A program made the translations under genes and the position numbers. From contig NZ_CP133261.1 of assembly GCF_030931715.1 (NCBI RefSeq), positions 2,148,643 through 2,212,642 of the forward strand: DNA of 64,000 bases, read 5' to 3'. Shown here piece by piece: positions 14,854 through 53,670 of the stretch (position 1 is the stretch's first letter; the number at the start of each line of letters is the position of its first letter). The DNA comes from Tissierella sp. MB52-C2. Its GTDB lineage: Bacteria; Bacillota; Clostridia; Tissierellales; Tissierellaceae. The notes under the pieces are model-generated. The model was not told the origin of the DNA, did not search any database, and was given only the letters and a program-made list of their open reading frames with translations.

Positions 14854-15519
14854 ATGATTATAGATACTCATATACATGAAAACAAATATTCATTTGACAG
14901 CTTTCTTGATTTTAAGGAATCTATCGAATTAGGTAAGCTTATGGGCTTAGATTCCATGTGTATTACAAATCACGATAATAATCATTTACGAAATGAACTA
15001 GGTGATTCTGCTAAGATAAACGATGTTTTAGTAATAGTAGGTGCGGAGATACTTACTTTTGAAGGAGATATACTTGTATTTGGATTAAAAGATATCCCAA
15101 AAGAAATGATAAGTGCAGAGGAACTTTTAACACTTGTTAAAAAACATAAGGGTGCTGCCATTGCCGCACATCCCTTTAGAAATAATAATCGTGGTATGGG
15201 AGAAAATATTAGAAAACTTAAACATCTCCTTACAGGCGTAGAATCTTTTAATGGTAGTACTTATTCATACCACAATCTACAGGCTTATGCCTTAGCTACA
15301 GAATTAAACATACCATCTTTAGGTGCAAGTGATGCTCATAAACTTCCTAAGCTTGGGTCCTACGCTACAAAATTTTATGATACTATACGAGATCATAAAG
15401 ACTTTATTGAGGCTCTTAAAGTTGGGAACTACCACCCTGTTATGAGGAAAAATGGTAAATATGAAAATATCAATTATTATTATGAAGATCATATAGTATC
15501 AGAAGAAAAAACCATATAA
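14854..15519 (+). CDS. PHP-domain metal-dependent phosphoesterase
   Basis: A 221-residue PHP-fold phosphoesterase. Metal-binding motifs are DTHIHENKYSFDS at the start, ITNHDNNH, GAEILT, AAHPFR and SDAHKLPKLG near the end, which make up the expected His/Asp/Glu set. It belongs to the stand-alone PHP group related to histidinol phosphatase and the RNase AM/YciV proteins; the substrate is unknown. Start has GGAGG eight bases ahead. It is transcribed alone and ends in its own terminator. Confidence 0.85.
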   Translation: MIIDTHIHENKYSFDSFLDFKESIELGKLMGLDSMCITNHDNNHLRNELGDSAKINDVLVIVGAEILTFEGDILVFGLKDIPKEMISAEELLTLVKKHKGAAIAAHPFRNNNRGMGENIRKLKHLLTGVESFNGSTYSYHNLQAYALATELNIPSLGASDAHKLPKLGSYATKFYDTIRDHKDFIEALKVGNYHPVMRKNGKYENINYYYEDHIVSEEKTI

Positions 15520-15551
15520 TTTACAGCAAATTCATTCTCTCTTATTAATAT

Positions 15552-15591
15552 AAAAAAAGAACTTCAATTTTAACTAGAAGTTCTTTTTTTT
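15552..15591 (+). terminator. terminator of the PHP gene
   Basis: Stem AAAAAGAACTTC / GAAGTTCTTTTT with a long T-run. Confidence 0.85.
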
Positions 15592-15698
15592 ACATTACAT
15601 AGTATATATAATTTTTTTGATATAAATATTATTTTTTACTTGCAATTATTTAAATTATGTGTTAACATGATAATAGTTGAAAAGTTAATAAGCGAATG

Positions 15699-15893
15699 AA
15701 GATTATTGGAAATATCTAATAGATAACCGTAGGAGCAAAAAGTAAGCATATCACTAAACTTACTTTGAAACTCTCAGGTTCTTAACAATAATCTGACGCG
15801 TTCCCTGGAGAGACTTGTTAAATCAAGCATCGAAGAAGCAATTCATATATGTATATTATGAGGAAACTTTCAGATAAAAAGACAGGGAGATAA
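15699..15893 (+). ncRNA. tandem glycine riboswitch
   Basis: Two aptamers in a row. Aptamer I is closed by GATTATTG (15701-15708) and CAATAATC (15786-15793) and has the conserved ACCGTAGGAGCAA and AAACTCTCAGG segments. Aptamer II is closed by TCCCTG (15802-15807) and CAGGGA (15883-15888) and has TGGAGAGAC, ATCGAAGAAGCAA and AAACTTTCAG followed by AAAAAGACAGG. These are the hallmark segments of the glycine riboswitch. The 3' strand of the second P1 stem is part of the following terminator, the usual layout for an ON switch: bound glycine would block termination. A TTGCAA (15640-15645) / TAACAT (15663-15668) pair may be its promoter. No glycine gene follows. Confidence 0.87.
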
Positions 15894-15938
15894 GGTGATA
15901 TTACTTTAATATATGTCACTTTATCTCCCTGTCTTTTT
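15876..15938 (+). terminator. riboswitch expression platform (intrinsic terminator)
   Basis: A 23-base-pair stem (15876-15898 with 15916-15938, all pairs Watson-Crick except one G-U) with a 17-base loop and five T at the end. Its left arm includes CAGGGA of the riboswitch P1 stem, so the two structures exclude each other. Confidence 0.85.
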
Positions 15939-16013
15939 ATGTTTTTGTAAATTAGATATTTTCTCCCTATCGAGGAGTTGTTAAGTATATATTAATTTTA
16001 TGACACACACACA

Positions 16014-16048
16014 CAAATAAAGCCATGATAATATCATGGCTTTATTTG
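16014..16048. terminator. terminator hairpin at the end of the methyltransferase gene
   Basis: A perfect inverted repeat of 17 bases per arm (CAAATAAAGCCATGATA and its complement) around one base. It overlaps the stop codon. The plus side is followed by TTTAT-rich sequence, so it may stop transcripts from both directions. Confidence 0.75.
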
Positions 16049-17892
16049 TTTATATAGTTATTTATTATTTCATAATCTAATTCATCTAATTCAAAATATT
16101 CTCCTATAATTTCATCTATATTTTTTTCTAAATCATATATCTTTTTCTGAATTTCTGCATCACCTTTACTTTTTAACTTCATTATCTCATTAACATTTTC
16201 GCTTATATCATCTACTATTTCCTCCATAATTATTTTTAAATCCAATATTGAATTAGGATAATAATCATAAATTCCTTTTCCCATTTTCTTAGCAAATAGT
16301 TTAAAGTAAAATTCATAAATACTTGAATTAAGTAATCCAACTAAATATTCCAGGGATATTCTATCTTTAAATTCATCTCTAACAACTAAAGAATATATGT
16401 CTGCACTATAATATAGATTATTATAATCTATTGTAAATCTATTGCTTCTAGATTTATAAGGAAATATTATTTTAGGCTGTTCAAATAAGTTTCTATCTCT
16501 ACCCCATTGTAGCTCATACCATTTTCTACTGCCTGTTTTACATTCTCTTCTCTTTTCTAGTCTTGTTTTATATTCTTTAATAAATTTTATACTTCTTGGA
16601 TAATCCCCCTCTTCTTCTATTAAGTCAGAATATATTAAGAATAGATCATTGTCTAAGGTATTATATCTCTCTATATTACTATTTTTTATCCATCTTTTAA
16701 GTAAGTCTTTTTCTATATTTTTTGACATTACTTCTTCTCCATTTAATACAAATGCCTTATCACATCCAGTTATAATTCCTTGGAAAGAGTTTGCTATATC
16801 TCCTAATCTATATCTCGTCTTTCTTTCTATTTTTTTATAGATATTTAAACTTCTTTCAGATATAAGTATCCATCTTTCTAGTTCTAAGCTATCCTGTTCT
16901 ACTTGAAAACTACTAAATAAATCAGACTCTATCTTTGATCTCAAATCCTTTAAATCATTAAATTTATACTTATCATTAATTAATTTATGTACCTTTATTT
17001 TATTACCTATTAGTCTATGTTTTTTAAATAAGTATATGGCAGTCGCAACTTTAACATCCTTAAAAATTTCAGCTCCATAGAAATCTACTATTTCAAAAAT
17101 ATCTGTATTTTCCTTTAAATACAATCGTAACTCTTTCCCCGTAGGGCTTTCCATGAAATATCTAGAAGTTATTATTCCAGATATTCCTTTAGGACTTAAA
17201 ATCTCAAGTATTCTTTGGAAAAAGCAGAAGGAAATATCTGATTTATCTTTGAACACATCCTTATATTCTTCCAATAACCATTCCTTATACTCTATACTCA
17301 ATTGTTTATGTCCAATATATGGCGGATTGCCTATGGAAATATCATATTTTTTACTCCAGAACTCCTTCAGTTGGTTATAATCCTTTGAATCTATAACATT
17401 GTTCTCCCATCTTACTAGACTATCACATTCTACAATATTTAAGTCTATTATATAGTCTATTTCTTCTTTAGATAATAAAGCCAATTTAGTTAAATCAACA
17501 GCTACCCCATCTTTATCAGCACCATAGATACAATGTTTCAGTATATGATAGTGAATATTTTCTTTCTGCCAATAATCTATTCCCTTTACTTTTACTATTT
17601 TCTCATACTTTTCTATGGTGTATATATTATCTTTATATTTATCTCGTATTTCCTCTAGTTTTAGTAAAAATTTTTCCTTTAAAATATCATAAGAGGCAGT
17701 CAAAAAATATCCTGCACCACAAGAAATATCTATTATACTAATAAAAGGATTTTGAATTATATCTACTTTTTCAACTGTATTTTCCAATATATATTTAATA
17801 ACAAAATTTGGTGTATAATATTGCCCTATTGATTTTCTAATTTCATTATCTGTATTTTGTTGGTAAATCTCACCTAATATATTATCTCCCAT
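16042..17892 (-). CDS. solitary Eco57I-like N6-adenine DNA methyltransferase
   Basis: An adenine-specific DNA methyltransferase with fused specificity domain. S-adenosylmethionine motif I is DISCGAGYF (about residue 55), the catalytic motif IV is NPPYIG (about residue 190), and the C-terminal part from about 330 resembles TaqI/Eco57I-type target recognition (SFQGIITGCDKAFVL, then a region ending in charged coiled segments). It begins at once with QYYTPNFVIKYILE, so there is no N-terminal PD-(D/E)XK nuclease and no separate restriction gene beside it. The frame can open at 17913, but the ATG at 17892 has GAGGTGG five bases ahead. It is likely an orphan methylase; it may protect against restriction or act in gene control. 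It is not part of the BREX operon 20 kb away. Confidence 0.85.
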   Translation of the reverse strand: MGDNILGEIYQQNTDNEIRKSIGQYYTPNFVIKYILENTVEKVDIIQNPFISIIDISCGAGYFLTASYDILKEKFLLKLEEIRDKYKDNIYTIEKYEKIVKVKGIDYWQKENIHYHILKHCIYGADKDGVAVDLTKLALLSKEEIDYIIDLNIVECDSLVRWENNVIDSKDYNQLKEFWSKKYDISIGNPPYIGHKQLSIEYKEWLLEEYKDVFKDKSDISFCFFQRILEILSPKGISGIITSRYFMESPTGKELRLYLKENTDIFEIVDFYGAEIFKDVKVATAIYLFKKHRLIGNKIKVHKLINDKYKFNDLKDLRSKIESDLFSSFQVEQDSLELERWILISERSLNIYKKIERKTRYRLGDIANSFQGIITGCDKAFVLNGEEVMSKNIEKDLLKRWIKNSNIERYNTLDNDLFLIYSDLIEEEGDYPRSIKFIKEYKTRLEKRRECKTGSRKWYELQWGRDRNLFEQPKIIFPYKSRSNRFTIDYNNLYYSADIYSLVVRDEFKDRISLEYLVGLLNSSIYEFYFKLFAKKMGKGIYDYYPNSILDLKIIMEEIVDDISENVNEIMKLKSKGDAEIQKKIYDLEKNIDEIIGEYFELDELDYEIINNYINK

Positions 17893-17972
17893 ATTCCACC
17901 TCGGTTTTCCCATCTTTTCTCACTATATTATACAAAGTTTACACTTAGTATATCAATATAAAACTAAAAAAT

Positions 17973-38340: not shown

Positions 38341-40497
38341 TTATAACCTATCATATATATTTTCAATGTCTATTCTAGATTCTTTCAATACTTTCTCTGT
38401 ATTTTTTATATCAACTAACTCATATTTAAGAACTTCTATTTGTGCAAATCTAGGTAAATGTTTATAAAATTTAGAATGACTTTCAAAGTTAGAAGATATT
38501 AGTGCCTTCTCAATTATTTCTTCTATTTTATCTGTATCTATTTTATATCTATTGAAAATATCTAAAATATGTTTTTCAGTAATATCTTTTTCTACTTCTC
38601 TAACCTTAAGTTTGTCATAAGAAACACTAAATTCAAGCTCAAGTTCATATTGAAATATTAATCCAAGGGTAAAATTCACCTTTTGTCCTGCGTAAGTATA
38701 TATATCAAATCCATCTTTTATTACATCAATGAGAACTTCATCTAAATCTAAAGAAAATGCAGAATGCTCTAATCGTATACTCTTTAATACAGACTTAGAT
38801 TTCATATCAATGTATGGATAGTCACTGTTACTATTAAGTACTTTTAGCATTTGCTTGGCTATCTCATAAGATATAACCATTCCACTACCCATCCATGTGG
38901 CAAGTCCACCTTCTTTAGATATTTTCACATATATTCTATATCTATCATAATCTATCTTATCTATCTGCCATGTATTTCCTGCTAATACAAATTTAGATGT
39001 CTTGTTTTCCTTTAATAGTGAATAGATGAACCAAGATTGTAAAGTTCCAATTTCCTTATTTTTATGTATAATTGAAAATTCAGATACCGTTTCAAATACA
39101 GATATAAAGTTCATTAAAAAATTATAGCCATATTCCTTCTCAATTTCCTTGCCAAGCAGATATTCACCATTACTAAATTCCAGATAGTTTTCATCTATAA
39201 GATATTGAATAAAGCCTAATAACTTATCCTCGTTAATATCTTTAAATGAATTTGATTTCTCCACAATTTCTTTTAAATATGGCTGATTTAGCCCAAATTT
39301 TTGTTGGATCATAGAAAATAATTGTTGAAATAGTACAGTATATGCTGCTAATGGAGTTGGAGTAGACTCTATCCACTTTTGTCTTGCTAATTCAACAATT
39401 GCAATGGCATTAATTAGGAAGAATTCTTGGCTAACACAGAACTCATAATGAGATATAGTTCCTTGCCTTCTACCCGTCCTCCCCATTCTTTGTCTAAATG
39501 AAGCCACTGTTGAAGGACTGTTTAATTGCATAACAACATCTAGTTCGCCTACATCTATTCCTAATTCCATAGTAGAAGTGCAGCATAAACACATTTCACT
39601 TGGAGTATTTTTTAATTTATCCTCAGATATTTCTCTTAAATTCTTACTAATGGAAGAATGATGAACTTTTGCATTTAACCCTAAGTTCTTTAGGATTCTA
39701 GACATCATTTCGCTATTGGTTCTACTATTACAGAAAAATAATGCCTTTTTGTCTCTTAACTCAGGTAGGAGACAACTAACGGTATCTTCACTAAACTCAT
39801 CAAAGTATCTAATAAATATTCTAGATTTATTACCTTTGTTTTCTGGCTTAATAACAGATTTTCTTCTTTTACTAGATCCAGATATCCAATTTAAAATTTC
39901 TTCTGGATTACCTACTGTTGCAGATAAACCTATCCTTTGAATATCATACTTTGAATAAGACTGTATCCTTTCAATGATACTCATTAGTTGAGCCCCTCTA
40001 TAGTTTTCTGCAAAATAATGTACTTCATCTATTACTATGAATCTTATATTTGAAAACAATTCCTCTGAGTCATATGAATCTGACATTAGTATAACCTCTA
40101 GTGATTCCGGAGTAGTGGCTATAATATGTTTTGGTTCTATCTTAAACTTTCTCTTATTGCTATAATCAACTTCTCCATGCCATTTAAAAGCATCTATGGA
40201 TCCAATTTTCCCAAGTTTTTTCAATCTAAATTCTTGATTATTAAGGAGCGCCCTAATTGGAGATACATAGATTACAGAAATAGGTTTCAAATTTTCTTTA
40301 TAAATTTCAGATATAATGGGTAAAAATGCTGCTTCTGTTTTCCCTCCAGCAGTTTGTGCAATTAGGATACAGTTATCTCCATTTAGAAGACATGGAATAG
40401 TCTTTTCTTGTATAGGTGTTAAACTATTCCACTTTAAAATATCTTTGATTCCATTCTGAATTTTACCATCCAGTAAGAAATAACTAGATTCCATCAT
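38341..40497 (-). CDS. brxHI: BREX helicase BrxHI (Lhr-like)
   Basis: A superfamily 2 DNA helicase of the Lhr type. Motif I AQTAGGKT (47-54), motif II DEVH, motif III LSATVG, motif VI QRMGRTGRR; the C-terminal half (from about 370) is the unclassified domain found in BrxHI. BrxHI is present in BREX types that have BrxD, here as the last gene of the operon. Its start overlaps the brxD stop by four bases (ATGA). How the helicase contributes to blocking phage DNA replication is not known. Confidence 0.9.
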   Translation of the reverse strand: MMESSYFLLDGKIQNGIKDILKWNSLTPIQEKTIPCLLNGDNCILIAQTAGGKTEAAFLPIISEIYKENLKPISVIYVSPIRALLNNQEFRLKKLGKIGSIDAFKWHGEVDYSNKRKFKIEPKHIIATTPESLEVILMSDSYDSEELFSNIRFIVIDEVHYFAENYRGAQLMSIIERIQSYSKYDIQRIGLSATVGNPEEILNWISGSSKRRKSVIKPENKGNKSRIFIRYFDEFSEDTVSCLLPELRDKKALFFCNSRTNSEMMSRILKNLGLNAKVHHSSISKNLREISEDKLKNTPSEMCLCCTSTMELGIDVGELDVVMQLNSPSTVASFRQRMGRTGRRQGTISHYEFCVSQEFFLINAIAIVELARQKWIESTPTPLAAYTVLFQQLFSMIQQKFGLNQPYLKEIVEKSNSFKDINEDKLLGFIQYLIDENYLEFSNGEYLLGKEIEKEYGYNFLMNFISVFETVSEFSIIHKNKEIGTLQSWFIYSLLKENKTSKFVLAGNTWQIDKIDYDRYRIYVKISKEGGLATWMGSGMVISYEIAKQMLKVLNSNSDYPYIDMKSKSVLKSIRLEHSAFSLDLDEVLIDVIKDGFDIYTYAGQKVNFTLGLIFQYELELEFSVSYDKLKVREVEKDITEKHILDIFNRYKIDTDKIEEIIEKALISSNFESHSKFYKHLPRFAQIEVLKYELVDIKNTEKVLKESRIDIENIYDRL

Positions 40498-41819
40498 AGT
40501 TCCATCTCCATGGCCATTTCTCTACCATATAGTTCGATCTGCTTATTGACTTCTTCAATTTCTTTTTCAGAAATGTTTAGAAGTGATTTTATTTTACTCA
40601 TAGGTTCTCTTTTTGCTGCTTCCAAGATGAATATAAAGTTTCGTAAAAAAGTCCTCGGTAATATACTTACTTCCTTTCCAAATGCATTGGTAAAACTTTG
40701 AACATAATCTCTAATAAACTCGTCTGATATTTTACTTTCAGGATTCCATTCATGGACAATTCCATGAATGTATCTTACTTTTCTAGAAACTTCTATCAAT
40801 TGACTTGAATCAAATCTTGACAATTTAATAAGAGGTTGTTCTAATATTCGAATATCACCTAGTTTAATTGGTTCTATTCTGGTATATAAAGCATCATGCT
40901 CCTTTATACCTTTTTCTTCGTCTTCTATCAATTCTTCTGTACCAGTTAGAAGAAGATAGCAACCGGGCAGGTTATCTTTACTAACCATATCTATAAGTAA
41001 TCTTAAATTTTCATAAGCCTGATATCTTATATCTTTTCTCTCTTTTCTTACAGTCTCAACTTCATCTATTATTACTAATAAACCTGCATACCCAGATTTT
41101 TCTATGATATAAAGTAATGTTTTAAGAAACTCAAATACATTTCCCTTATCTACTGATCCTTTAACCCCTATGCTCTTCTTTATATCGGCAGGTATATTTG
41201 TATCACCAGCAAACCAAGCAAGAGACTTTCGTGCCAATGTATTGTCGCCACTTAATAGCCCCGTACAAAATGATATAACTGCATTTACAATAGAAACATT
41301 AGTTGTATTTGCTTTCGCTAGTTCTAATGATATCTTATCTCTAAGCCTTACTATAAGTTTTTCTTCGTCCTCCTCATTATCATCAGGATCTAAATTGTAT
41401 TTACTTATAATCTCAGATTTTTCTTTTTCAATCCAACTTTCAATTATAATTCTAAAAGCAGAGAACTCTCTAAACTCATTTGTTCGCATCCCAACCATTA
41501 TTTTATTATATATTGTTTCAAAATTATGAAGTTGAGTATTTTTAGATATTACTATTTCTGAGATAACAAAATTATCCTTCAGTGCTTCCTCTTTTAATAC
41601 TTCGCATAAAAAAGATTTACCACTTCCATATGGGCCATATATCATTTTGAATCCTGAATGTGCGTTACCATTCGATTTGAATCTTATATAGTTCAAATCT
41701 TCTAGTATTGCATCTCTCTCTTCTTCATGACCACACATAATATGTTTAGCACCTTCATATGCTGGTACACTTCCATTGTGTAAAGCCCTTAAAATTTGTT
41801 GTCCTTCGTTTATATTCAT
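40494..41819 (-). CDS. brxD: BREX ATP-binding protein BrxD
   Basis: An AAA-type ATPase with Walker A GPYGSGKS (62-69) and Walker B LLVIIDEVETV. Family BrxD (DUF2791) is found in BREX types 2 and 6. 441 residues is typical. It follows pglZ by 15 bases and overlaps brxHI. Confidence 0.9.
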   Translation of the reverse strand: MNINEGQQILRALHNGSVPAYEGAKHIMCGHEEERDAILEDLNYIRFKSNGNAHSGFKMIYGPYGSGKSFLCEVLKEEALKDNFVISEIVISKNTQLHNFETIYNKIMVGMRTNEFREFSAFRIIIESWIEKEKSEIISKYNLDPDDNEEDEEKLIVRLRDKISLELAKANTTNVSIVNAVISFCTGLLSGDNTLARKSLAWFAGDTNIPADIKKSIGVKGSVDKGNVFEFLKTLLYIIEKSGYAGLLVIIDEVETVRKERKDIRYQAYENLRLLIDMVSKDNLPGCYLLLTGTEELIEDEEKGIKEHDALYTRIEPIKLGDIRILEQPLIKLSRFDSSQLIEVSRKVRYIHGIVHEWNPESKISDEFIRDYVQSFTNAFGKEVSILPRTFLRNFIFILEAAKREPMSKIKSLLNISEKEIEEVNKQIELYGREMAMEMEL

Positions 41820-41834
41820 CCTATGAATTCCCCC

Positions 41835-44477
41835 CTATTTCAGATAGTACTCGTATGTTGACATACCTACAACCTTAAAACCTATCCAATCATATCCTTC
41901 ATTGTTAAGTTTTGAGATGAAATCTTGCATAAATGCCATTACTGATTGAGATATAAACCTAATACCATTCTCATTACATATTTCTTGTATCTCAGAATCT
42001 GTATAAGAAGATGCTCTTAAGAATAACTCTAGTATTCTTTTCTCTTTCTTACTTAAACCATTACTGTCTATATAGTTTTCTATTTGTTCTTTAACTGATT
42101 TAGGAATTTCCCTTGCCTCATTTTGAGCAATATCCATATTTAAGCCAACATCATCCAAACTAATTTGTTCTACTACCTCAGGAGTATATTTCTTTATTAC
42201 TTTTTCATCATTTTTCTCTATAACTATTACAGGTACTAGTAATTCTTGAAGCGATATTCCTCCATGGTGAAATTTAGTACCTCCACTAACTGGAAACACA
42301 TTTATTCCCCTTGGAAAATTAAAATATAAATCTCCATCATAATTAGAGGAGTAGGCACTCTTAGTTATATAGTTTCCGTCTACCTTTTTTCTTGAAATAG
42401 TATATCTTCGTTTCTTTACAACATTATCCATATCCTTTGAAATATCAACCTTCATCCATTCCTCTAGCCCAGAAGTTAATATGAAGCCATGATCTGCAAC
42501 AACAACTATTTTTTCAATATCAATCTGTACCAATTTCTTTATTGCACTTTGTATCTTATTGAGCAATCCGGGAAACATCTGAATGTTGCTATCTTCAATG
42601 TGACCAGCCTCATCGATTTCATTTGAAAAAATTAATATTCTATCCTTTTTTTCAAATTCATTCTTTAAACTATTTATTGGAATATCTACAATTTCATTTA
42701 AGTTCTTAACTACTCCATCGCCATCAGATATTTCTAAGAAATACTTTACACGTTCCGATTTATTATTTAATGGATAATTAAGGTTTCCGTCTGTTATTTT
42801 AACCGAATCATTCTCTTCATTTAGGCTAAGTTTTGTATAACCGTTAGGTAACAAACTAGCCATTCCGAATTCCGTAACTGTTGGTATAGAAGAAATAATT
42901 GGTGTGATTGTTTTATGTTTAATTTCATTAAGCATTGAGAATATTTCTTTTCCCATTTCATATCTTAAAGCATCTACTATTACTACTGCTGTCTTCTTAT
43001 CAGAGTTTGATACATATTTAGACCAAAAATCTAATTGTATATCTGTCTTAAATTCATAATCGTGTTTACTCTCAATAATATTAGATATTTCTTCATTTAA
43101 GGGTTTAAGATATTGGTAATAATATCTCTTGTCCACAAAGTTTAGAAGTTGAGATATAAAATCATCAATCAAAGTGTAATCTTCTTGAATTTTCCTATAC
43201 AATAAGTCTATCTTCCACCAACTTTTAGTTTCATAAAGAGAAATTATATTATCTATGTTATTATCTATTATTTTAAACTCTTCTTCAAATATATAAATCA
43301 TGTTTATTAACTGAAATATATTATTAAGGATATTCCATTTATTAAATATCTTTGATTTAGAAAAATAGTATCTTCTCCTAATATCTACAAATACATTTAG
43401 ATCTTTTAATTGGCTCCTCAGTGATTCTATATCTATACCATTTTCACTTTCGCTATATTGATAACTTTTTTGCTCTTCCTTCACATATAAACCATTTAAA
43501 TATCCCAATAAATCTTCTTTTATTAAATGTGGATCCTGAACCCCTTTAAATATCTGAATCTCTAATTTTTTATATAAAATTTCCTCTATACCATATAGAT
43601 ATTCAATAGCAAATAACTCGTCAACTTCCATTTCATTAAGTACATCAATCATATGTTTTTCAGAAACCTTTTTAGAGTACTCAACAAACTTTTCTCTATA
43701 AACTTCATGATTAGCCCATGTTTCTAGAAGTTGAACACAATTCATTATTTTATTAGTATTTGATAATCTAATTCCAAAAGGTCTTATATCTTTATTTCTA
43801 CTTTTCTGGATCAACTCACTTTGGAATAAACTATCTGCAATGTATTCAACAACTTTAGCCTTTGACTCAAAGTTTGATACGTTAATACCATACTCTAAAG
43901 AGAGGAACTCAAAAAATTTATCTTTAATTCTTGCCTCTTCAAGAATAGATTCATACTTATCTGTTTCACAAATATATTTAAGTATTGTATATTCTTTACT
44001 AATATCAACATATCCAAATCCATTAGTTAAGACAATGTCATCTAGTGTTTCTTGATTAAGGCTTCTAATGACACTTTCAGGTATTACATCCCATAATCTT
44101 TTCAATATATTTAGGCGTTCTTCCAGTGTTGATATGTCAAATTGTCCAAAATCTATCCTGTGATTTTTTTCTAAGATATCTTTTACTGACGCAATATATG
44201 TGTCTCCAAAATATTCAAACTCAGTTAAAAAACCCTGCTTATTCTCTACATTAGAATATATAAGCCACTTTTTTGTAAGTTCACTATCAGCCAATAGGAT
44301 TTTGTAGCGGAGTTCAATAAAACTGCCTTCATAGGCAATTTTATTGACTCCTTGTTCATCAAATAAATTAAACTCTTGTAAAAATTCATTCTGCCAATCA
44401 TACCATATAACAATATTAGAGTTCTTAAATTTTTCCCTTATCTCTGCTTGAATCAATTTATAAAATGGTGTTTTCAT
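41835..44477 (-). CDS. pglZ: BREX phosphatase-like protein PglZ
   Basis: Defining BREX component of the alkaline phosphatase superfamily. The PglZ domain is in the second half: AVVIVDALRYEMGKEI (about 495-510) and VVVADHGFILTSG (about 655-668) hold metal ligands. The N-terminal half is mixed alpha with coiled parts; the C-terminal 100 residues look like a winged-helix tail. 880 residues. Its ATG overlaps the pglX stop codon (TAATG). Confidence 0.93.
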   Translation of the reverse strand: MKTPFYKLIQAEIREKFKNSNIVIWYDWQNEFLQEFNLFDEQGVNKIAYEGSFIELRYKILLADSELTKKWLIYSNVENKQGFLTEFEYFGDTYIASVKDILEKNHRIDFGQFDISTLEERLNILKRLWDVIPESVIRSLNQETLDDIVLTNGFGYVDISKEYTILKYICETDKYESILEEARIKDKFFEFLSLEYGINVSNFESKAKVVEYIADSLFQSELIQKSRNKDIRPFGIRLSNTNKIMNCVQLLETWANHEVYREKFVEYSKKVSEKHMIDVLNEMEVDELFAIEYLYGIEEILYKKLEIQIFKGVQDPHLIKEDLLGYLNGLYVKEEQKSYQYSESENGIDIESLRSQLKDLNVFVDIRRRYYFSKSKIFNKWNILNNIFQLINMIYIFEEEFKIIDNNIDNIISLYETKSWWKIDLLYRKIQEDYTLIDDFISQLLNFVDKRYYYQYLKPLNEEISNIIESKHDYEFKTDIQLDFWSKYVSNSDKKTAVVIVDALRYEMGKEIFSMLNEIKHKTITPIISSIPTVTEFGMASLLPNGYTKLSLNEENDSVKITDGNLNYPLNNKSERVKYFLEISDGDGVVKNLNEIVDIPINSLKNEFEKKDRILIFSNEIDEAGHIEDSNIQMFPGLLNKIQSAIKKLVQIDIEKIVVVADHGFILTSGLEEWMKVDISKDMDNVVKKRRYTISRKKVDGNYITKSAYSSNYDGDLYFNFPRGINVFPVSGGTKFHHGGISLQELLVPVIVIEKNDEKVIKKYTPEVVEQISLDDVGLNMDIAQNEAREIPKSVKEQIENYIDSNGLSKKEKRILELFLRASSYTDSEIQEICNENGIRFISQSVMAFMQDFISKLNNEGYDWIGFKVVGMSTYEYYLK

Positions 44478-47400
44478 TACGTTCCTACCTCTTCATAGTA
44501 GTTATCTCTTTCTCTCTTAGTTGCTACTGGGGCTGATAGTATAGGTTCTATAGGTATTATATTGTACAATACCCCTTCATCTATATTGGGTTTGTATGGC
44601 AATATCTCCATTATCTTCTTATCTAAAATGCTTAGATCTTCTAATTTTGCTTCTAAGTCACTACATTTATCTTTGACATCTTTTTCTTTACTCTTATCAC
44701 CGTTAGTCCTTGCCTCAATTAATTGATTGGTATAATACTCTAAATCTTCCTCGTATCTATCAATCATTTGACTTAAATAGATGCTCTTAACTTTATATAA
44801 AGTATCATCGTCTAGTTTATGATAGTATACAAAACAATTAAAAGTTTTCTTAGGGCTACAAATATGCCAGTATATTGGACGTTTTTTATAACTTCTAGAA
44901 TGATTTTTAAAGAAATCATTAATAATATATTTTTCAAGAGTTGTACCAAGAATCTCTTCAATTTCTTCAAAAGTATTATCAGAATTTTCTACACCAAAAT
45001 ATTTCCCAATAATAATATATATCTGTTCTATAATATCTTTTTCTAAATAGATCGAAGAATTGACTGGAACAATACCATCATCTATAGACTTTATATCATT
45101 ATTCCATCTATCAAATATGCATCCAATTAAAATACTTATAATGTTTTCTAGTTCCTTCTTTATTGCCTTATCTCCATATAATTTTTCTTCTATTCTTTTT
45201 TTGATTAAAATATCCTTTCTTAAATTTAACTTTTTACTTACTAGATTATAATTTGGATTATTGTCTTCATTTATCAATTTGATGTAATCAGACTTATCTA
45301 CATCGATATTATTATTTACTCCATTTTCCTCTTCAATAAATTCAACTTCATCTTCGCTTATCTTGTATGTATCATAGACTAATCTATTAATTATTTCATC
45401 CCTATTGTATACATCTAAATCAATCTTATCTTTTATATTAAGAAAATTTAAAATAGTCATCTCCATAGAGTCAGAAAGTAACTTTATTATATTTTCAAAA
45501 TTGAAATATCTAGATATTTCTATAAGAGAGTATTTATGCCTTAAATCCTCAATGTTTTCTAATACATTTTTTTTAATTATATTATTGTTTTCCAAACTAA
45601 ACTTCTTAATAGGCAACCGATTTACATCTCCAACTTGACAATGATTAGTCGGATTTATAACATTTAAAAAGTAGATTATTAAGTTTGAATTCATTAAGCC
45701 TAATAAAAAGAAATTATCAACACCTTTTTTAGGAAATATACCTGGTTTATCATCTTCGATTATAGTGTTTTCGTGAAGATATTTGGCACTAAAATTGGCA
45801 CCGTATGGTGATCTGGGATAATACATGCCTTCAGTATTAAAGTAGTTTATACCTGTATAACCTCCCTTGCTTTTATAAAATTCTATAGCATTTTCAGAAA
45901 AATCTACCACTGTATTATCTAAAGATACATATCTGTCTCCACCAGGTATTTGGTTAATCCATTTCCATTTTTCGTAGTTATTAACTTCCCAATAAAATCT
46001 AATATATTTATAATTAGCATATGTACTTATCCCTCTTTGGACGTGTGCATATTCTTTGTAGTTAGATTTTAAAAAATAATTTAATATATTCTCAGATAAT
46101 TTATAGGTAAAAGGATACCCTTTTATTATTTTAAACTTTTCTTGATTTATTTGATATTCTTTTATCCCTTCTGTTATATTTGGATAGTCTGCCCGATTTT
46201 CACAACTAGTTATATCCACAAACTCAGACTTTAAATTTTCTTGTTTAGTTTTATTTAGTGTAAACATTACACTATTAACCTTCTCACCTGTAAGTTCTTC
46301 AAATATTCCAGTTCCTAGATGAACAACCTTTTCTATTTGATTAAATTCTAATATGTTTTTTCTAAGATCTTTATACTTAGGAGTAAACATAAATCCATGT
46401 TGAACAATCATACCTAATATCCCATTTTCATTCAAAAATTCTTCGCATCTCATTATAAATGCCGAATATAAATCTTCACTGCCTGCATTATAATTACTTA
46501 TTATAAAGTTCTTTAATTTTATATCCATATTTCCAATACCCATATACGGAGGGTTAGTAACTACTACATCATAGCCTGTTTTTTGCATGAATATATTTAC
46601 AAGTTTGATTGATTTTGTAGCCTCAGTGGCAAATAGTTGTCTTGATATATCATTGGCTTTAATTGCCTCACTATAAATGGCATTCAAACTGTCCATAAGT
46701 TCTCTTTCTTCCTTGGTAAAGTCTCGCTGAGATTTATACTCGTCAAAAGAAATGGTTTGGTCTTCTAGTAAATTTTCTTGACCTTTAGTTTGCTTCTTCT
46801 TTGTTCTTTTCGCTTTACTTAATTCCTTCCTTGCAATTCTGTTCTTAAATTCCTCAAACAATGGAAATAATTTCTTTTCTGGTTGAATAAGGCTCCCTTT
46901 AAGCCTTACATCTTCAAATTCTTCATAAATAATTTCTATCATTTTTAATATTGTCTTATTGTTTTTATGTTTTTCTTTTAAATCTTCCAATCTACTTCCG
47001 TTTAACAAAATTGCATCAGCACATACCAAATTAACTGAAAGTTTACCTTTAGTATTTGTGTTATAACCATTTTCTTTTAGATAAGTCTTAGTTTTTATAA
47101 ATAATATTAACCCTGTCAATTGAACTGCTCTTAAATCTATATCTATACCATGAATGTTATTTTCTAATATTTTATAAGGTATTTCCTCTATTGTATATTT
47201 TCCTTCTTCTAAATACATCTCAAAAAATACATCGTATGCTCTTACTAAGAAGTGTCCACTTCCACAACAAGGATCTATAAGTTTAATGTCTTCAACATTT
47301 TTTTTGTCCCTTAATCCATTCTTCATTTCAGAATATACTTTATAAAGAGAATTATCTATTATCCAATTCACAACCCAATCTGGAGTAAATATTTGAGTTG

Positions 47401-48091
47401 TTGCTGGAACTTCATCTACGCTGATGAAAAAGTCTTTTTGATCCTGCCTTGTATAGATCTCACTTTTTTCTATGGAATTAAAATATTGATAAATCCAACC
47501 TATGATTTCATCCTGTCTCCATGATTCCTCATCAATATTGGAGCATAAAAGTTCTATTACTTTTAATAAACTTGTACTTGATGGAGTTACGAAGGAATAT
47601 TCATCCTCCGTATTAAACAACATCTTTATCTCCTCACTGATTTCTTCAAACATTATATTTAAGAGATAGGCTAATCCTCCATCCATTTCATACTTACAAT
47701 ATTCTCTTGCAACTTCATAGAATCTTGACCCAATAAATGATCTATTACCATATTCACCTCTAGGTATTAAAATTTCATCAATAAGACCTCTGACTTCCAT
47801 TACCCTAAGTGCTGCTAAACGATTAAGATAGGTGTATGAAACTTCCTTTATATACTCTATAACGGCTTTGTCTTTCTCAAATCCACCTTTTTTAAGTTTT
47901 TCAATTGCTTTTTCTATATTCTTTCTGTTCTTCTCTTGTTTCTCAGTTAAATTTTTTAAATCCCTTAAATTAACCCAGTCTTTATTAATATAAATACCAT
48001 AATTTATTAAAACCTGTTCTATATCTTCTTCTAATATGTCTCTACACTCAAGAATAGTAGACTTAATAGACTTCTTTTGTTCTGCATTCAA
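44477..48091 (-). CDS. pglX: BREX adenine-specific DNA methyltransferase PglX
   Basis: Methylates host DNA at N6-adenine in a fixed non-palindromic site to mark self. SAM motif I is DPCCGSGHFLVRAYDVFFE (about 275), catalytic motif NPPYMG (about 513). Target recognition and coiled-coil regions fill 600-1204. 1204 residues equals typical PglX. The frame is intact, with no sign of the phase-variable tracts known in some pglX genes. It is separated from brxC by 11 bases. Confidence 0.95.
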   Translation of the reverse strand: MNAEQKKSIKSTILECRDILEEDIEQVLINYGIYINKDWVNLRDLKNLTEKQEKNRKNIEKAIEKLKKGGFEKDKAVIEYIKEVSYTYLNRLAALRVMEVRGLIDEILIPRGEYGNRSFIGSRFYEVAREYCKYEMDGGLAYLLNIMFEEISEEIKMLFNTEDEYSFVTPSSTSLLKVIELLCSNIDEESWRQDEIIGWIYQYFNSIEKSEIYTRQDQKDFFISVDEVPATTQIFTPDWVVNWIIDNSLYKVYSEMKNGLRDKKNVEDIKLIDPCCGSGHFLVRAYDVFFEMYLEEGKYTIEEIPYKILENNIHGIDIDLRAVQLTGLILFIKTKTYLKENGYNTNTKGKLSVNLVCADAILLNGSRLEDLKEKHKNNKTILKMIEIIYEEFEDVRLKGSLIQPEKKLFPLFEEFKNRIARKELSKAKRTKKKQTKGQENLLEDQTISFDEYKSQRDFTKEERELMDSLNAIYSEAIKANDISRQLFATEATKSIKLVNIFMQKTGYDVVVTNPPYMGIGNMDIKLKNFIISNYNAGSEDLYSAFIMRCEEFLNENGILGMIVQHGFMFTPKYKDLRKNILEFNQIEKVVHLGTGIFEELTGEKVNSVMFTLNKTKQENLKSEFVDITSCENRADYPNITEGIKEYQINQEKFKIIKGYPFTYKLSENILNYFLKSNYKEYAHVQRGISTYANYKYIRFYWEVNNYEKWKWINQIPGGDRYVSLDNTVVDFSENAIEFYKSKGGYTGINYFNTEGMYYPRSPYGANFSAKYLHENTIIEDDKPGIFPKKGVDNFFLLGLMNSNLIIYFLNVINPTNHCQVGDVNRLPIKKFSLENNNIIKKNVLENIEDLRHKYSLIEISRYFNFENIIKLLSDSMEMTILNFLNIKDKIDLDVYNRDEIINRLVYDTYKISEDEVEFIEEENGVNNNIDVDKSDYIKLINEDNNPNYNLVSKKLNLRKDILIKKRIEEKLYGDKAIKKELENIISILIGCIFDRWNNDIKSIDDGIVPVNSSIYLEKDIIEQIYIIIGKYFGVENSDNTFEEIEEILGTTLEKYIINDFFKNHSRSYKKRPIYWHICSPKKTFNCFVYYHKLDDDTLYKVKSIYLSQMIDRYEEDLEYYTNQLIEARTNGDKSKEKDVKDKCSDLEAKLEDLSILDKKIMEILPYKPNIDEGVLYNIIPIEPILSAPVATKRERDNYYEEVGT

Positions 48092-48102
48092 CGAACTCCC
48101 CC

Positions 48103-51100
48103 CTATTCAATCATTATGCTGTTTCCAGCACTAATCTCTTCCATTAATTGTTTCTCAATTTTTTTCAGATAGTCTTTAAGAGACTTCGGACTTTGAATAA
48201 GTACGTTTTTAGGAAAATTGCTTGTACTTAGATACTTAATTACTGGTTTTGGAACTTCAACCTCATCTTCTTCCATTTCTTCTTCAATTTGCTTGTTAAG
48301 ATACTCATATAACTTATCTATGGCTTTTTCATTATAAACATCTACTGCATCTATAATTGTTTTCATATCCCTAATAAATGTTCTACAACTAGGACATGGA
48401 ATCTCTAATTTAGAAATATTATGAGAACATAATTTGTCAGAAAATGTACTTAATATGTCTCCTTTTGCTATTTCACTTTTCAGATTTAAGAAACTCTTAT
48501 TCTTGCTCATTTCTTCTATTTTCTCATTATAAAGTTTATATAGAGTTTCATGAGTTTCTATATATTCTTTTACATATGGATCATAGAGTTTATAAAAATC
48601 ATCTCTAACAGTAGGCCATGAATCTATAAATGCTTCACTTTTTAAATCCTTCATTATTTGGGCATATATTTTTTCTTTAATTTCTATATCCTCATCATTG
48701 CGATCTAGTTCTATTATCCATACATTGTTTAAGAAATACTTCATTTTCTTATATTCTTTTAAGTTCCCATTATCAATAAAATTCTTTAATTTCTCATATT
48801 TTGATAAGAAGGTTCCATATTCTGAGGCTTTTTGAACAAAGTTGTTTATAGTTTCACCTTGTGTCTTTGACTTTAATATAGTGTTGAAAATCTCATCTAA
48901 CTTATCTATTGAATCTTTAAATGCTAAATTATTGCTAGATATTATTTCTTTTATTGCTGAAATATCATTTCTATAGTCAATTAATATATTTCTCGTATTG
49001 CTATATAACTCAACTAAGGTATCTTCAGATCTTTTGTCAAACATATTCATTAAAATATCCTGACATTTTTGTCTAGTGGATGCGTCAACTACTACTGCTA
49101 ATTTGAATATTGCTTTTCTAAAATTAGGCTCATTTTCAAATATATCTCTTACTCCTGATTGATTGTAGTCAAGAAAATCTTTGCCTTCGTAATTAAGTTC
49201 TATATTTCCATTTTTAAATAGTAAGGCCGTAAAAAGCCGTACTGCATCTGAGGCCCAGCCATATGGCTCATTATCAAATACACTTAATAAATCCTTACCA
49301 ATACATTGTCCATATTTATTTTTCAAGGTTTTTATTTCATTTAAAACTTCTTTTAATACAGCAGATTCTGCATTTACATTGGTGTCCTGTATTAGATTTA
49401 ATCCACTTAAATCTATAGATAATTGATTTCCTTTAAATACACTCTGTATATCTTCTTTTGTTATCTTAACACCTACTGTATCAAATCTATGATAGACTTT
49501 TGGTATTGCTAGATTAGCAATATCTTCAAATATGGATTTTAAATCATTTTTATCTGGTGTAGGAAATTCCTTTCCTTGATATATATAGGTACCATCAATA
49601 AAAGACTTTTTAATCTTCTCTTTTATATCTTCATCTAACTTTATATTCTTTTGTTCTTCTTTTCTTAAAAAATAACTCTTATCTTCGTCCGAACTCCATT
49701 TTCTTCTATATTCATCTATTATTTTATTAAAGATCAAATATTGCTGCATATCTTCATCAATTGAATTATCATACTTTGCATACCAATATATATTTCTACT
49801 ATCTCCAATACTTTTCATTAGATGCTGTTGTTTTCTCAATTCATCTGAAGATTGCATCACACTATTTAAATTAAGACTTACTAGACCCCTACTATTCCTT
49901 ACCTCATCATCTATAGTTAGTTGTATATCAAATGGTCTAATATTTTTGTAATTTATTCTTGTTATGGTAAATATGCCATCGATTACTTCTTTTACTTTTT
50001 TATTTATATCTCTAACTCCAATTTCATTTAATCTAGAAATTGCTTCTTGCCTAAAACTCTGCTCCTCAGGCGCTATGAACTTATAGTTTCCATGGGCATC
50101 TTTTTCCACATATCCATGCCTGTATAATATATCTAGACTTGATTTAACCTCTTCTAAAATATCAATAAAGTCTGCATCTACATTGTTTATAAGTAATTTT
50201 GCAATAGTATCTATGTCTTTTTGTAATTTATCATCATTGTCTAATAGATAAAGCACTTTTAAAATCTTTACTAATAATTCTCCATTATTTGGGTCCAGTT
50301 GTTCCGCTTCTTTAATACTTATTTGAATTTGATCATCTATAAATTCTTTTGCCTGTTCAAAGAACATATCTAAAGTAACTAATTCACCAATATTCTTCTC
50401 TTTCACATTAACATTACTGTCAATAAGTATCCCTTGAGTTGCTTTAATCATACTTCTGTTAGTTCCACCTAGTTTCTTGTTAACTTTTGAATTTGAGATT
50501 ACATTATAGTAAATAGGCTGAATTAGTCTTATATGATAAGGAAGAAAAGGATAAGTATCTATAAAATCTTCTTTATTTAGTTTAGGCATATACCTTTTAA
50601 AATCTTTGAACTCTAAGATAGATGATAACTTTCCTTTATTACTCTCATATAATCTATCAATATCTTTTACTACGTCTGACTTTTTCTTTAAGACTCTTTC
50701 ATTTATAACCTTATCTAAGTTTTCTGGAGTTAAATGTATTCTTACTTCAAATCTATCTATTACTTTATTTACCTCATCCTCAGTCTTTAAATACTGCTCT
50801 GTTATTTGTTCTAATTTGTTTTGTGAAGATACTGCAAACCATAGTTTGCCTTTACCTTTTCTTGCAAATGTACTTTCTATGGCTTGTAAATATCCTATTA
50901 CCTCTGGATTTGCTGAAATGTATTGACCTATTTCATCTACGATTACAAATAATCTATTATTTAGCCCATTCTGTTTGTCTAGTTCGTCAACATACTTACA
51001 TAACTCATCTGCCAAAATAGACGCAGAAATACTTTTACTTCTCTTAAGGTCTTCTATATAATCTTTTGCTATTGATTCCGTGGGAATTTGCTCCGGTAAT

Positions 51101-51729
51101 ACCCTAACTAGTGCTCTTTGGATATAGTTTTGACCTATTCTTGTTGGCCTTATATCCTCCCATTTTCTATTACTCATTTCTTCAATGGTTTGTACAAATT
51201 CTTCATACTTTCCTTCATCAGATAGTTCTTTTTCCATCTCTGCTACCCAAAGTTTCCCAGTATAAAATCCTCTCTTGCTTAGCCATTGTTTATAAATAGT
51301 TTGCTCTATAGGCTCAACTTTGCCTTCTAATTTTGCTGCTTCTTCTAAGATGTCGAACATTACTACAGTAGTTTTATAAGTTTCATTTATTTTTTCTATA
51401 TAGTTTTTTAAAGTATTTGTTTCGTCTCTTCTAATAAAAATATCTGCAGCAGAAGAATCATCAAATTGATGGTTTTCTAGTAAGTAACCAAATATCTTTA
51501 AGAAATGTGATTTACCTGAGCCAAACCATCCTGATATCCAATATCCAACTTTGTTTTTATCATTAAGATATTTATCCAAACACTTCTTAAAATGTTCTCT
51601 TAATTGGTCTGTAATAACGTACTCCTGTAATTCTTGTTTAGCCACATTTACATCGTCTTCTTGTACCTTAATTACCGGATTTATGTATCTTTCTATAGGA
51701 TCCCTAAATAAATCTTTAATTATTATCAT
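48103..51729 (-). CDS. brxC: BREX P-loop ATPase BrxC
   Basis: Large AAA+-like ATPase, essential in studied BREX systems, with Walker A ISGWFGSGKSHF (65-76) and Walker B LFVIVDEIGQYI. DUF499-type core, then a long helical C-terminal region with CPSC near 1090 that may bind zinc with a distal cysteine/histidine. 1208 residues, as expected. It follows brxB by 15 bases. Confidence 0.94.
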   Translation of the reverse strand: MIIIKDLFRDPIERYINPVIKVQEDDVNVAKQELQEYVITDQLREHFKKCLDKYLNDKNKVGYWISGWFGSGKSHFLKIFGYLLENHQFDDSSAADIFIRRDETNTLKNYIEKINETYKTTVVMFDILEEAAKLEGKVEPIEQTIYKQWLSKRGFYTGKLWVAEMEKELSDEGKYEEFVQTIEEMSNRKWEDIRPTRIGQNYIQRALVRVLPEQIPTESIAKDYIEDLKRSKSISASILADELCKYVDELDKQNGLNNRLFVIVDEIGQYISANPEVIGYLQAIESTFARKGKGKLWFAVSSQNKLEQITEQYLKTEDEVNKVIDRFEVRIHLTPENLDKVINERVLKKKSDVVKDIDRLYESNKGKLSSILEFKDFKRYMPKLNKEDFIDTYPFLPYHIRLIQPIYYNVISNSKVNKKLGGTNRSMIKATQGILIDSNVNVKEKNIGELVTLDMFFEQAKEFIDDQIQISIKEAEQLDPNNGELLVKILKVLYLLDNDDKLQKDIDTIAKLLINNVDADFIDILEEVKSSLDILYRHGYVEKDAHGNYKFIAPEEQSFRQEAISRLNEIGVRDINKKVKEVIDGIFTITRINYKNIRPFDIQLTIDDEVRNSRGLVSLNLNSVMQSSDELRKQQHLMKSIGDSRNIYWYAKYDNSIDEDMQQYLIFNKIIDEYRRKWSSDEDKSYFLRKEEQKNIKLDEDIKEKIKKSFIDGTYIYQGKEFPTPDKNDLKSIFEDIANLAIPKVYHRFDTVGVKITKEDIQSVFKGNQLSIDLSGLNLIQDTNVNAESAVLKEVLNEIKTLKNKYGQCIGKDLLSVFDNEPYGWASDAVRLFTALLFKNGNIELNYEGKDFLDYNQSGVRDIFENEPNFRKAIFKLAVVVDASTRQKCQDILMNMFDKRSEDTLVELYSNTRNILIDYRNDISAIKEIISSNNLAFKDSIDKLDEIFNTILKSKTQGETINNFVQKASEYGTFLSKYEKLKNFIDNGNLKEYKKMKYFLNNVWIIELDRNDEDIEIKEKIYAQIMKDLKSEAFIDSWPTVRDDFYKLYDPYVKEYIETHETLYKLYNEKIEEMSKNKSFLNLKSEIAKGDILSTFSDKLCSHNISKLEIPCPSCRTFIRDMKTIIDAVDVYNEKAIDKLYEYLNKQIEEEMEEDEVEVPKPVIKYLSTSNFPKNVLIQSPKSLKDYLKKIEKQLMEEISAGNSIMIE

Positions 51730-51744
51730 ACTCTTGACCCCTTT

Positions 51745-52287
51745 CTATATTATTAAAGCCCTAAGGGCAGTTTCCTTATATTCGTCCAATAGTGTTACTG
51801 AGAATCTGTCATAACTCCCCGGATAAAAGAATACGACTGGAATTTGAACTCTTCCTTCTAAATAAGATAGTAATCTTATAAAGTTAAAGTATATAGCCGT
51901 TGCCCCTACTCTAGTCACCAATATTCTTCCTTTAGGACCTATTTCTTTTGCCTTGGATATGAAGTGAGACCTTACTTTTTCTAATAAAAATTCTCCTAAT
52001 TCCTCTACCATGTCAATGTCTTCTTCTATCTTTTCTAATTGGATAATGCCCTCTATAGTCTCGTATTCCTCTATAATATCAAATAAAAGTTGCTCCATAT
52101 TTATCAATTCTATATGAAACGCTTCTATTTCCTGTTGCAATTTGTTTATTATATACATAACATCCTTATGTTCCTCTTTTTCATATGGACAAATGACAAA
52201 AGGAACTCCTGAATGTCGTACCCAAGCAAGGCTATCATTATTGATTAACTCTGTTATCTTAGTGTATTTCTCCATTAACGTAGCCAT
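51745..52287 (-). CDS. brxB: BREX protein BrxB
   Basis: DUF1788 family, about 180 residues, small alpha/beta protein with unknown activity but needed for BREX. Visible hallmarks are WVRHSGVPFVICPYE near the start and IPVVFFYPGSYD near the end. AAGGAGAT lies ahead of the ATG, which is 29 bases inside brxA. Confidence 0.92.
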   Translation of the reverse strand: MATLMEKYTKITELINNDSLAWVRHSGVPFVICPYEKEEHKDVMYIINKLQQEIEAFHIELINMEQLLFDIIEEYETIEGIIQLEKIEEDIDMVEELGEFLLEKVRSHFISKAKEIGPKGRILVTRVGATAIYFNFIRLLSYLEGRVQIPVVFFYPGSYDRFSVTLLDEYKETALRALII

Positions 52288-53050
52288 CTATTATCTCCTT
52301 CATAGTTTTATATTTATATATTAAAGTTTTAGGTTCTTCTCTTCCAAAGTCTAAAACTCCATTTCTATATGCTTCTTCAAGTAACATATGAATGTCGCTT
52401 TCTAATAACAAAAACAAATGTAAATCCTTGCATTTATATACATCTTCTGTAGTTTTAATATTATCTTTATTCATATATAAAACATAGTAAAAAATTATTG
52501 ATGGAATAAATGGTTTATTAAATGTAGGTCTTTTTCTACTATCAATAAAACCAAATTCCTTTAATACTCCCATCATACCTGAACGTACATCGTTAATGGT
52601 CCTTTCTGACCATTTAGATACATTTTCATCTTTATCAGCAAGACCTAAAATAAACTCTGTAGTGTCCGCTGAAGATATCCCTAAAAAGCCATCTGTATAT
52701 TTTTCATATACTAGATTTGCTATATATTCGTATATGATTCTTTCTTCCTTGCATAAATAGTAGTATAAAAGGAGGTTGATAATACTATCTGAATCAATCT
52801 TTTTCAAAGAATAGATAAACGAAGTTTCTTTATAGCCATCTAATTGATTGTATAAATATCTTTTTCTTAACTCGTAAAATATTGTCTCTGCTCTTCTTTT
52901 TGAAGTTTTCAAGATTAAATTATTATCGAGTACCTCTTTTCTTAAAAGTTCTACATCTTTTAATTCTAGATATTTTTTTAATATTAGTTTTGTGTCTGGT
53001 AGAACTGTACCTACCACTTTAATACTAGATCTGTAATCCTTTGATTCCAT
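52259..53050 (-). CDS. brxA: BREX protein BrxA
   Basis: DUF1819 family, a helical DNA-binding protein of BREX. Pattern LKKYLELKDVELLRKEVLDNNLILKTSKRRAETIFYELRKRYL matches the BrxA N-terminal helical region. At 263 residues it is longer than the Escherichia type 1 protein (about 200). The frame extends to 53104, but the ATG at 53050 has AGAAGGA upstream and overlaps the brxE stop (TAATG), so it is chosen. Confidence 0.88.
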   Translation of the reverse strand: MESKDYRSSIKVVGTVLPDTKLILKKYLELKDVELLRKEVLDNNLILKTSKRRAETIFYELRKRYLYNQLDGYKETSFIYSLKKIDSDSIINLLLYYYLCKEERIIYEYIANLVYEKYTDGFLGISSADTTEFILGLADKDENVSKWSERTINDVRSGMMGVLKEFGFIDSRKRPTFNKPFIPSIIFYYVLYMNKDNIKTTEDVYKCKDLHLFLLLESDIHMLLEEAYRNGVLDFGREEPKTLIYKYKTMKEIIDGYVNGEIH

Positions 53051-53670
53051 TATATAGCCATCCTTCTCATATAGTATGGAGTTACAACGCTTCCTAGCGT
53101 GCATAAATCATAAATTGATATAAATGATTTTATTACATCTTCAAAGTTTTCTTTATTTTTGTAAAAAGTTTCGCTTATGCTACCTAATTCTATAGTCTTT
53201 TTATCATCTAAAGTATGAGTAGTTAATTTAGGTAGATTAAAAAATTCTCTAGCCCATGGGTCTGTAAACTTTTTGTCCTTGATATTTTCAATCATATCTA
53301 ATACTTCTTGCCAACCATTAGAGTTTGATATTTCCCTTATAAATGGAGTAAATATCTTACTCTCAAACTCATATCCAAAATTAAACAACGTAGTGAATCT
53401 TTTTTTAGCAATTTCTCTATTTTCTTTTTGAATTATTATCTTTCTTGCAATATCATAACGTTGCTTATGAAAAGTATTAGGGAAAAACTTCTCTAAGTTT
53501 CTTCGTCCTACTTCACCTAAGATACTAGACTCCCACCACACATTATTATCCTCTTCTCCTAAACGGATAATAGTTAATCTATAAAAAAGTGTATCTGCTA
53601 ATATTTCTGCATTAACTTCTGAGTTATGTTTCTTTGCTAATTCATGAATTTTATTCCTTATGGCTTGCAT
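53050..53670 (-). CDS. brxE: BREX protein BrxE
   Basis: First gene of the operon. Sequence features RLTIIRLGEEDNNVWWESS and LEKFFPNTFHKQRYDIARK match the BrxE family (RLGE, WW-S, L-FP-T, then a helical region), which is diagnostic for BREX type 6 and of unknown function. 206 residues is the usual size. GGAGG is seven bases ahead of the ATG. Confidence 0.85.
   Translation of the reverse strand: MQAIRNKIHELAKKHNSEVNAEILADTLFYRLTIIRLGEEDNNVWWESSILGEVGRRNLEKFFPNTFHKQRYDIARKIIIQKENREIAKKRFTTLFNFGYEFESKIFTPFIREISNSNGWQEVLDMIENIKDKKFTDPWAREFFNLPKLTTHTLDDKKTIELGSISETFYKNKENFEDVIKSFISIYDLCTLGSVVTPYYMRRMAI

Follow-up and report, generated by a model that had tools for sequence, protein, structure and literature searches.

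A tandem glycine riboswitch without a downstream gene in Tissierella, and the conserved noncoding element that follows it

The window analyzed here, a 64-kb stretch of a Tissierella genome of 3.89 Mb (G000), carries a tandem glycine riboswitch and a terminator with no gene behind them, and the same layout is found in 4/4 genomes of the genus. With modest confidence, we read the locus as a free-standing noncoding RNA gene, descended from a glycine riboswitch after the loss of its coding target; its likely output would be a conserved element located beyond the terminator. Riboswitches are usually regarded as gene leaders. If our reading is correct, a riboswitch that stayed under selection once its gene was lost, and behind which lies a conserved noncoding output, would show how a cis-acting switch becomes a metabolite-controlled regulatory RNA. 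Since Tissierella simiarum (G004), which represents a sister genus, keeps a gene-bearing version, it offers a 'before' state with which the 'after' state seen here can be directly compared. The features of the locus, in window positions, are the following:

14854-15519, plus strand: PHP-domain gene, the upstream neighbor, which has a terminator-like hairpin of its own near 15551-15591
15640-15668, plus strand: candidate promoter (TTGCAA, 17 nt, extended -10 TGT-TAACAT), with a predicted start near 15675
15692-15799, plus strand: leader (GCG..AUGA), aptamer I and linker (UGACGC), from the RF03166 alignment and the RF00504 match
15700-15708 with 15786-15794, plus strand: P1 of aptamer I
15800-15889, plus strand: aptamer II, with P1 at 15801-15807/15883-15889
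15874-15940, plus strand: terminator 1, a stem of 28 pairs with a T-rich tail behind it; the 5' arm overlaps P1 of aptamer II
15941-15974, plus strand: spacer of weak conservation that separates terminator 1 from the element and serves as an internal yardstick
15975-16012, plus strand: conserved noncoding element (AGTTRTTAAGTATATATTAATTTT-ATGACACRCACACACA), predicted to lie mostly outside strong helices, with an exact core at 15981-16006
16013-16049, plus strand: second hairpin, 17 pairs with a U-rich 3' side, overlapping the last camA codons; candidate end of read-through transcription
16042-17913, minus strand: convergent gene for a CamA-type adenine methyltransferase (PDB 7lni, E 2.9e-138; Eco57I/N6_Mtase/TaqI_C), a neighbor outside the unit

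The riboswitch and its predicted mode of action

A preliminary description of the region, made from the sequence of the window, had proposed a tandem glycine riboswitch with both aptamers, and covariance models bear this out. RF00504 matched aptamer II at 15795-15895 with 59.3 bits and aptamer I with 40.5 bits, against a cut-off of 32; cmscan of the 64-kb window returned aptamer II only, and the match to aptamer I came from a genome-wide search. The tandem also aligned end to end with RF03166 (tandem glycine-GGAnGA) over 15692-15889 (90.5 bits, E 1.2e-19), a likeness that stays under the curated cut-off of 110 bits for membership in that family. The fold of the riboswitch region had a z-score of -7.6, which was equaled by 0/200 shuffles. 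As in the transporter-type tandem glycine riboswitches of RF00504, there are two aptamers, a possible leader-linker helix (the alignment shows GCG/CGC for the orphans, GUG/CAC for T. simiarum) and a terminator that excludes P1. As also described for glycine riboswitches of transport genes, in the passages cited, aptamer II is the more conserved of the two (PMC6944388). Its helices are 96-100% paired in the four-species alignment. Unlike RF00504 riboswitches in general, the orphan has an aptamer I with a non-canonical core, in the J1/2 and J3/1 segments, and no gene next to it. The departures in aptamer I are partly common to the EIIC-linked and the 447-aa-ORF-linked copies of relatives. In aptamer II, the conserved GGAC is AGAC in G000 alone of the four orphans (window 15876-15886), and this change provides extra pairing for terminator 1. 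The sequence points to glycine as the probable ligand of the orphan riboswitch; certain variant glycine riboswitches reject glycine, according to the cited part of one study (PMC9481103).

The pattern TTGNAA-17-TANNAT, with TG ahead of the -10, was read from the alignments of the four orphans and of T. simiarum, and it is this conservation that suggests a promoter before the riboswitch. A consensus promoter scan gave 8 matches, no excess over shuffles (6.3), and did not list the candidate. The preliminary description had also proposed a terminator of 23 base pairs that would exclude the second P1. The exclusion was confirmed, as nucleotides 15883-15889 belong both to P1 of aptamer II and to the 5' arm of terminator 1, so that the two structures are mutually exclusive, as expected of an RF00504-type expression platform; the stem itself has 28 pairs instead of 23. 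Because P1 and terminator 1 exclude each other, glycine should by design allow read-through, and the predicted direction of the switch is that glycine turns it on.

We propose that transcription would start near 15675. When glycine is low, terminator 1 would form and cut transcription short at about 270 nt. When glycine is bound, aptamer II would keep the 3' strand of its P1 and terminator 1 would be blocked; read-through would then proceed to the second hairpin, to yield an RNA of about 380 nt with the element exposed and mostly unpaired. Two transcripts, a short one and a long one, are thus predicted by this scheme. The element, as the likely output, would pair with a target RNA or bind a protein. 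A wider formulation, to which we subscribe only tentatively, is that of a genus-wide noncoding RNA gene born by target loss, in which glycine opens read-through to an unpaired element that regulates RNAs or a protein in trans; our searches found no target of the element.

Absence of a downstream gene and the gene that was probably lost

That no plus-strand gene follows the terminator, as the preliminary description had stated, is upheld by the 33 plus-strand ORFs of at least 60 aa between 15900 and 64000, each of which shares sequence with a minus-strand ORF or with RNase P. Whereas an RF00504 riboswitch is expected to control a downstream gene, no same-strand gene was found behind it in any of the four genomes, the absence in G001 (Tissierella sp. 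P1) resting on a joint reading across contigs. To gauge rarity, we took the riboswitch matches from 60 genomes belonging to the same order, grouped them into 85 sites and scored each site for a same-strand ORF of at least 60 aa within about 0.7 kb downstream. Such an ORF was present at 79 sites and absent from 5, and 1 site was at a contig edge. The five gene-less sites are the four of the genus Tissierella and one in another family of the order (G034:C52:2106-3997), at which a tandem glycine riboswitch without a sizeable gene is followed by a hydrophobic ORF of 48 aa, which has a good Shine-Dalgarno sequence, and then by a convergent 300-aa ORF. A further site, G054:C84, looked like an orphan only because of ORF shadowing; plus-strand genes are present there and it is counted among the 79. 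The window genome also has a second glycine riboswitch (G000 C1:737105-737209) with the normal layout, next to a plus-strand gene of 312 aa, the product of which presumably resembles thioredoxin reductase.

The 48-aa ORF of G034:C52 raises the question of whether the switch controls a very short peptide encoded after terminator 1. A frame of 6-10 aa that begins with ATGACACACACACA... does exist in all four orphans. However, the four frames (MTHTHK, MTHTQIKS, MTHTQINLII and MTRTHK) differ at their ends and lack a Shine-Dalgarno sequence at the normal distance, and we found no conserved reading frame or short ORF in the read-through region of the four orphans. We regard a peptide product as very improbable.

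The suggestion that the target gene had been lost gained support from the relatives. T. simiarum has an orthologous riboswitch (72% over 278 nt), the promoter of which also aligns, and directly behind this riboswitch and its terminator is a gene for a PTS_EIIC_2 membrane protein (PF13303, 2.1e-52). Close homologues of this protein, with at least 64% identity (64-71%, plus the query itself), were found in 8 of the 60 genomes, including that of T. simiarum. Six of the eight are behind a tandem glycine riboswitch, one is without any, and one is at the start of a contig, in a genome in which a different contig ends in a tandem riboswitch. In the four orphan genomes no homologue was matched at E 0.001. 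The T. simiarum ortholog, the linkage of six of the eight homologues to a riboswitch and the absence from the four orphans lead us to conclude, with fair confidence, that the gene lost behind the orphan riboswitch coded for this PTS_EIIC_2 membrane protein. In the order, tandem glycine riboswitches regularly have this subfamily as their target (L006 7592-8650 and its homologues, 64-71% identical), suggesting a transport role tied to glycine.

The preliminary description had further surmised that the gene was lost when the methyltransferase segment arrived. This is contradicted by the gene order of relatives. In three members of the family that lack the riboswitch at this spot (G011, G017 and G006) the order is RNase P - camA - (TSCPD) - nlpC and/or nhaC - folD, and a contig of G010 carries camA-nlpC-folD with no such riboswitch there. 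Since camA is in place in genera without the riboswitch at that spot, it is an old resident; judging from gene order, it is the riboswitch, with its PHP and CDF neighbors, that is the newer arrival. More likely, but not proven, the riboswitch-EIIC unit was inserted together with the PHP and CDF genes between TSCPD and nlpC, and the EIIC gene was later lost in the genus; a less likely alternative is that the riboswitch was copied without its gene. In T. simiarum the riboswitch unit is on the opposite side of TSCPD and camA is missing, which indicates that a rearrangement also occurred. The arrangement shared by the four species suggests one old gene loss, which most likely took place before they split.

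Constraint on the unit and its downstream element

Relative to the window, aptamer II differs at 2/96 (G003), 7/95 (G001) and 6/95 (G002) positions, i.e., 2-7%, and aptamer I at 8, 14 and 19 of 102 positions, respectively, whereas fourfold-degenerate sites of the neighboring genes differ at 26-58%; the sample consists of four species only, two of them close. In the four-species alignment, nine pairs are changed on both sides, four of them in terminator 1 and five, with pairing kept, in the second hairpin. The covariation score for both hairpins is 0.333; slid partners score 0.063-0.152, and 0/500 shuffles reach the observed value. For the aptamer helices, which are 95.7% paired, 65/500 shuffles reach the score; these helices are too conserved to covary beyond shuffles, and their evidence is therefore one of constraint and not of covariation.

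Beyond terminator 1, the spacer has mismatches to the window of 18-52% in addition to indels (15938-15976), which are large in G001 and G002. The element that follows has a core of 26-27 bases, TTAAGTATATATTAATTTT(T)ATGACAC, with 0-1 mismatch per pair of genomes over 26-28 compared bases. As an exact pattern, the core was found in a single copy in 4/4 genomes of the genus and in 0/5 others. In a search of the DNA of 28 genomes of the family, the element part was likewise found only in the four genomes of the genus, T. simiarum matching the riboswitch part only and G024 the hairpin part only. Two other identities for the element were considered. The first, a part of the camA 3' end, was rejected: the element was not seen after camA in five other members of the family. 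The second was a chromosome dimer (dif) site; a Firmicutes dif sequence, 3 mismatches being allowed, had a match in 0/7 genomes, and as no dif match was obtained anywhere, that test excludes little. A loose pattern for the complement of the element, searched in 6 genomes, matched the own locus in three, the end of contig C3 in G001 and one further place in G001, which we took as chance.

Could the locus be a relic, a functionless leftover of the gene deletion that has simply not decayed yet? PTS_EIIC_2 is gone, no target was found and a core base of aptamer II is changed in G000; in a survey, transposon insertion, pseudogenes or annotation error account for many of the riboswitches that seem misplaced (PMC9943018). 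However, the loss likely predates the split of the four species, and yet aptamer II has diverged far less than the fourfold-degenerate sites, the pairing of terminator 1 has been maintained through paired changes, and the downstream element is conserved even more than aptamer II. We thus consider a relic unlikely, with the proviso that, if the gene loss were recent and repeated, the constraint could date from before it. Selection could, on the other hand, act only on the two strong hairpins, as an insulator that stops transcription between convergent genes. Both hairpins do covary, and they are located between convergent units. This would leave unexplained both the constraint on aptamer II, including unpaired positions of its core, and the unpaired element, and we regard it as rather improbable. 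The retention of an intact riboswitch with a conserved noncoding element behind it in place of a gene suggests that the RNA itself may have become the product of the orphan locus, in line with our favored reading of a free-standing noncoding RNA gene.

Convergent neighbors and related systems

The preliminary description correctly had the next gene as convergent, but placed it at 16042-17892; the ORF runs from 17913 to 16042. Its close homologue PDB 7lni is the methyltransferase CamA of C. difficile. A CamA-type methyltransferase is found near RNase P in several genera of the family. In G000, G002 and G003 camA is convergent about 100 nt past terminator 1, which places the riboswitch on the 3' side of an opposing gene. 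G003 has no PHP gene at the locus, and its unit lies between CDF and camA. In G001, the riboswitch is on contig C44, which breaks off within the second hairpin. Contig C3, which shares its outer end with C44 except for differing last bases, has hsp20, TSCPD, camA and RNase P arranged in the ancestral order. From the overlap of the contigs and this gene order we infer, across the contig break, that the two are joined; most likely, then, hsp20 faces the riboswitch unit in G001, with hsp20 and TSCPD between the riboswitch and camA (the assembly has 6% contamination). The stretch from the promoter to the second hairpin thus persists in all four species while both flanks change. That the unit is kept while its neighbors change argues that the RNA, and not a neighboring gene, is the object of selection, and also that the element is a part of the riboswitch transcript and not of camA.

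These observations bear on the other proposal of the preliminary description, a transcript running antisense into the 3' end of the methyltransferase gene. Glycine-dependent read-through would then lower camA expression, by collision or by duplex formation. The convergent position of camA in three of the four genomes fits this view, and there are precedents, in the cited parts of the survey, in the SAM riboswitch at ubiG-mccBA and the cobalamin riboswitch at pocR, along with 32 glycine riboswitches found in antisense position (PMC9943018). Nevertheless, G001 keeps the riboswitch and the element even though hsp20 and TSCPD most likely precede camA there, and a second hairpin is positioned at the camA end. 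In addition, camA has no evident connection to glycine; to our knowledge, none has been described. The antisense proposal is therefore weakened, and we judge it improbable. That the RNA acts on its own is the better of the two options originally put forward, and the conserved element and the second hairpin, neither of which the preliminary description mentions, strengthen it. The U tract of this hairpin is imperfect, and the hairpin could serve the convergent gene instead.

For cobalamin, two kinds of RNA under riboswitch control are established, noncoding RNAs such as Rli55 and antisense RNAs such as AspocR (PMC8079631). As in Rli55 of Listeria, where a cobalamin riboswitch and a terminator determine whether the noncoding RNA is short or long, in the orphan locus a riboswitch and terminator are followed by a conserved noncoding segment and a transcript end, the latter assigned by structure only. 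The two differ in ligand and in sense: in the same account, the ligand of Rli55 causes termination, whereas that of the orphan is predicted to prevent it. They also differ in that Rli55 has an EutV-type target, and none was found for the orphan. With AspocR and the ubiG-mccBA antisense RNA, as they are presented in the passages cited (PMC8079631; PMC9943018), the orphan shares the position of the riboswitch on the 3' side of a gene that converges on it; it differs in that the facing gene probably varies (camA or hsp20) and in that its second hairpin may end the transcript before the facing gene is reached. The literature searches that we made found no glycine riboswitch without a gene or in control of a free-standing noncoding RNA.

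Two further observations were made around the locus. In three Clostridium-named relatives (L010, L011 and L012), THF riboswitches are found a few kb from the homologue of the PHP gene. On the far side of camA, a large stretch is inserted between camA and RNase P in G000; it is absent from that spot in the other genera looked at, and it includes, at window positions 38341-53104, a BREX-type system with family matches to BrxA, BrxB, PglX, PglZ, BrxD and BrxH.
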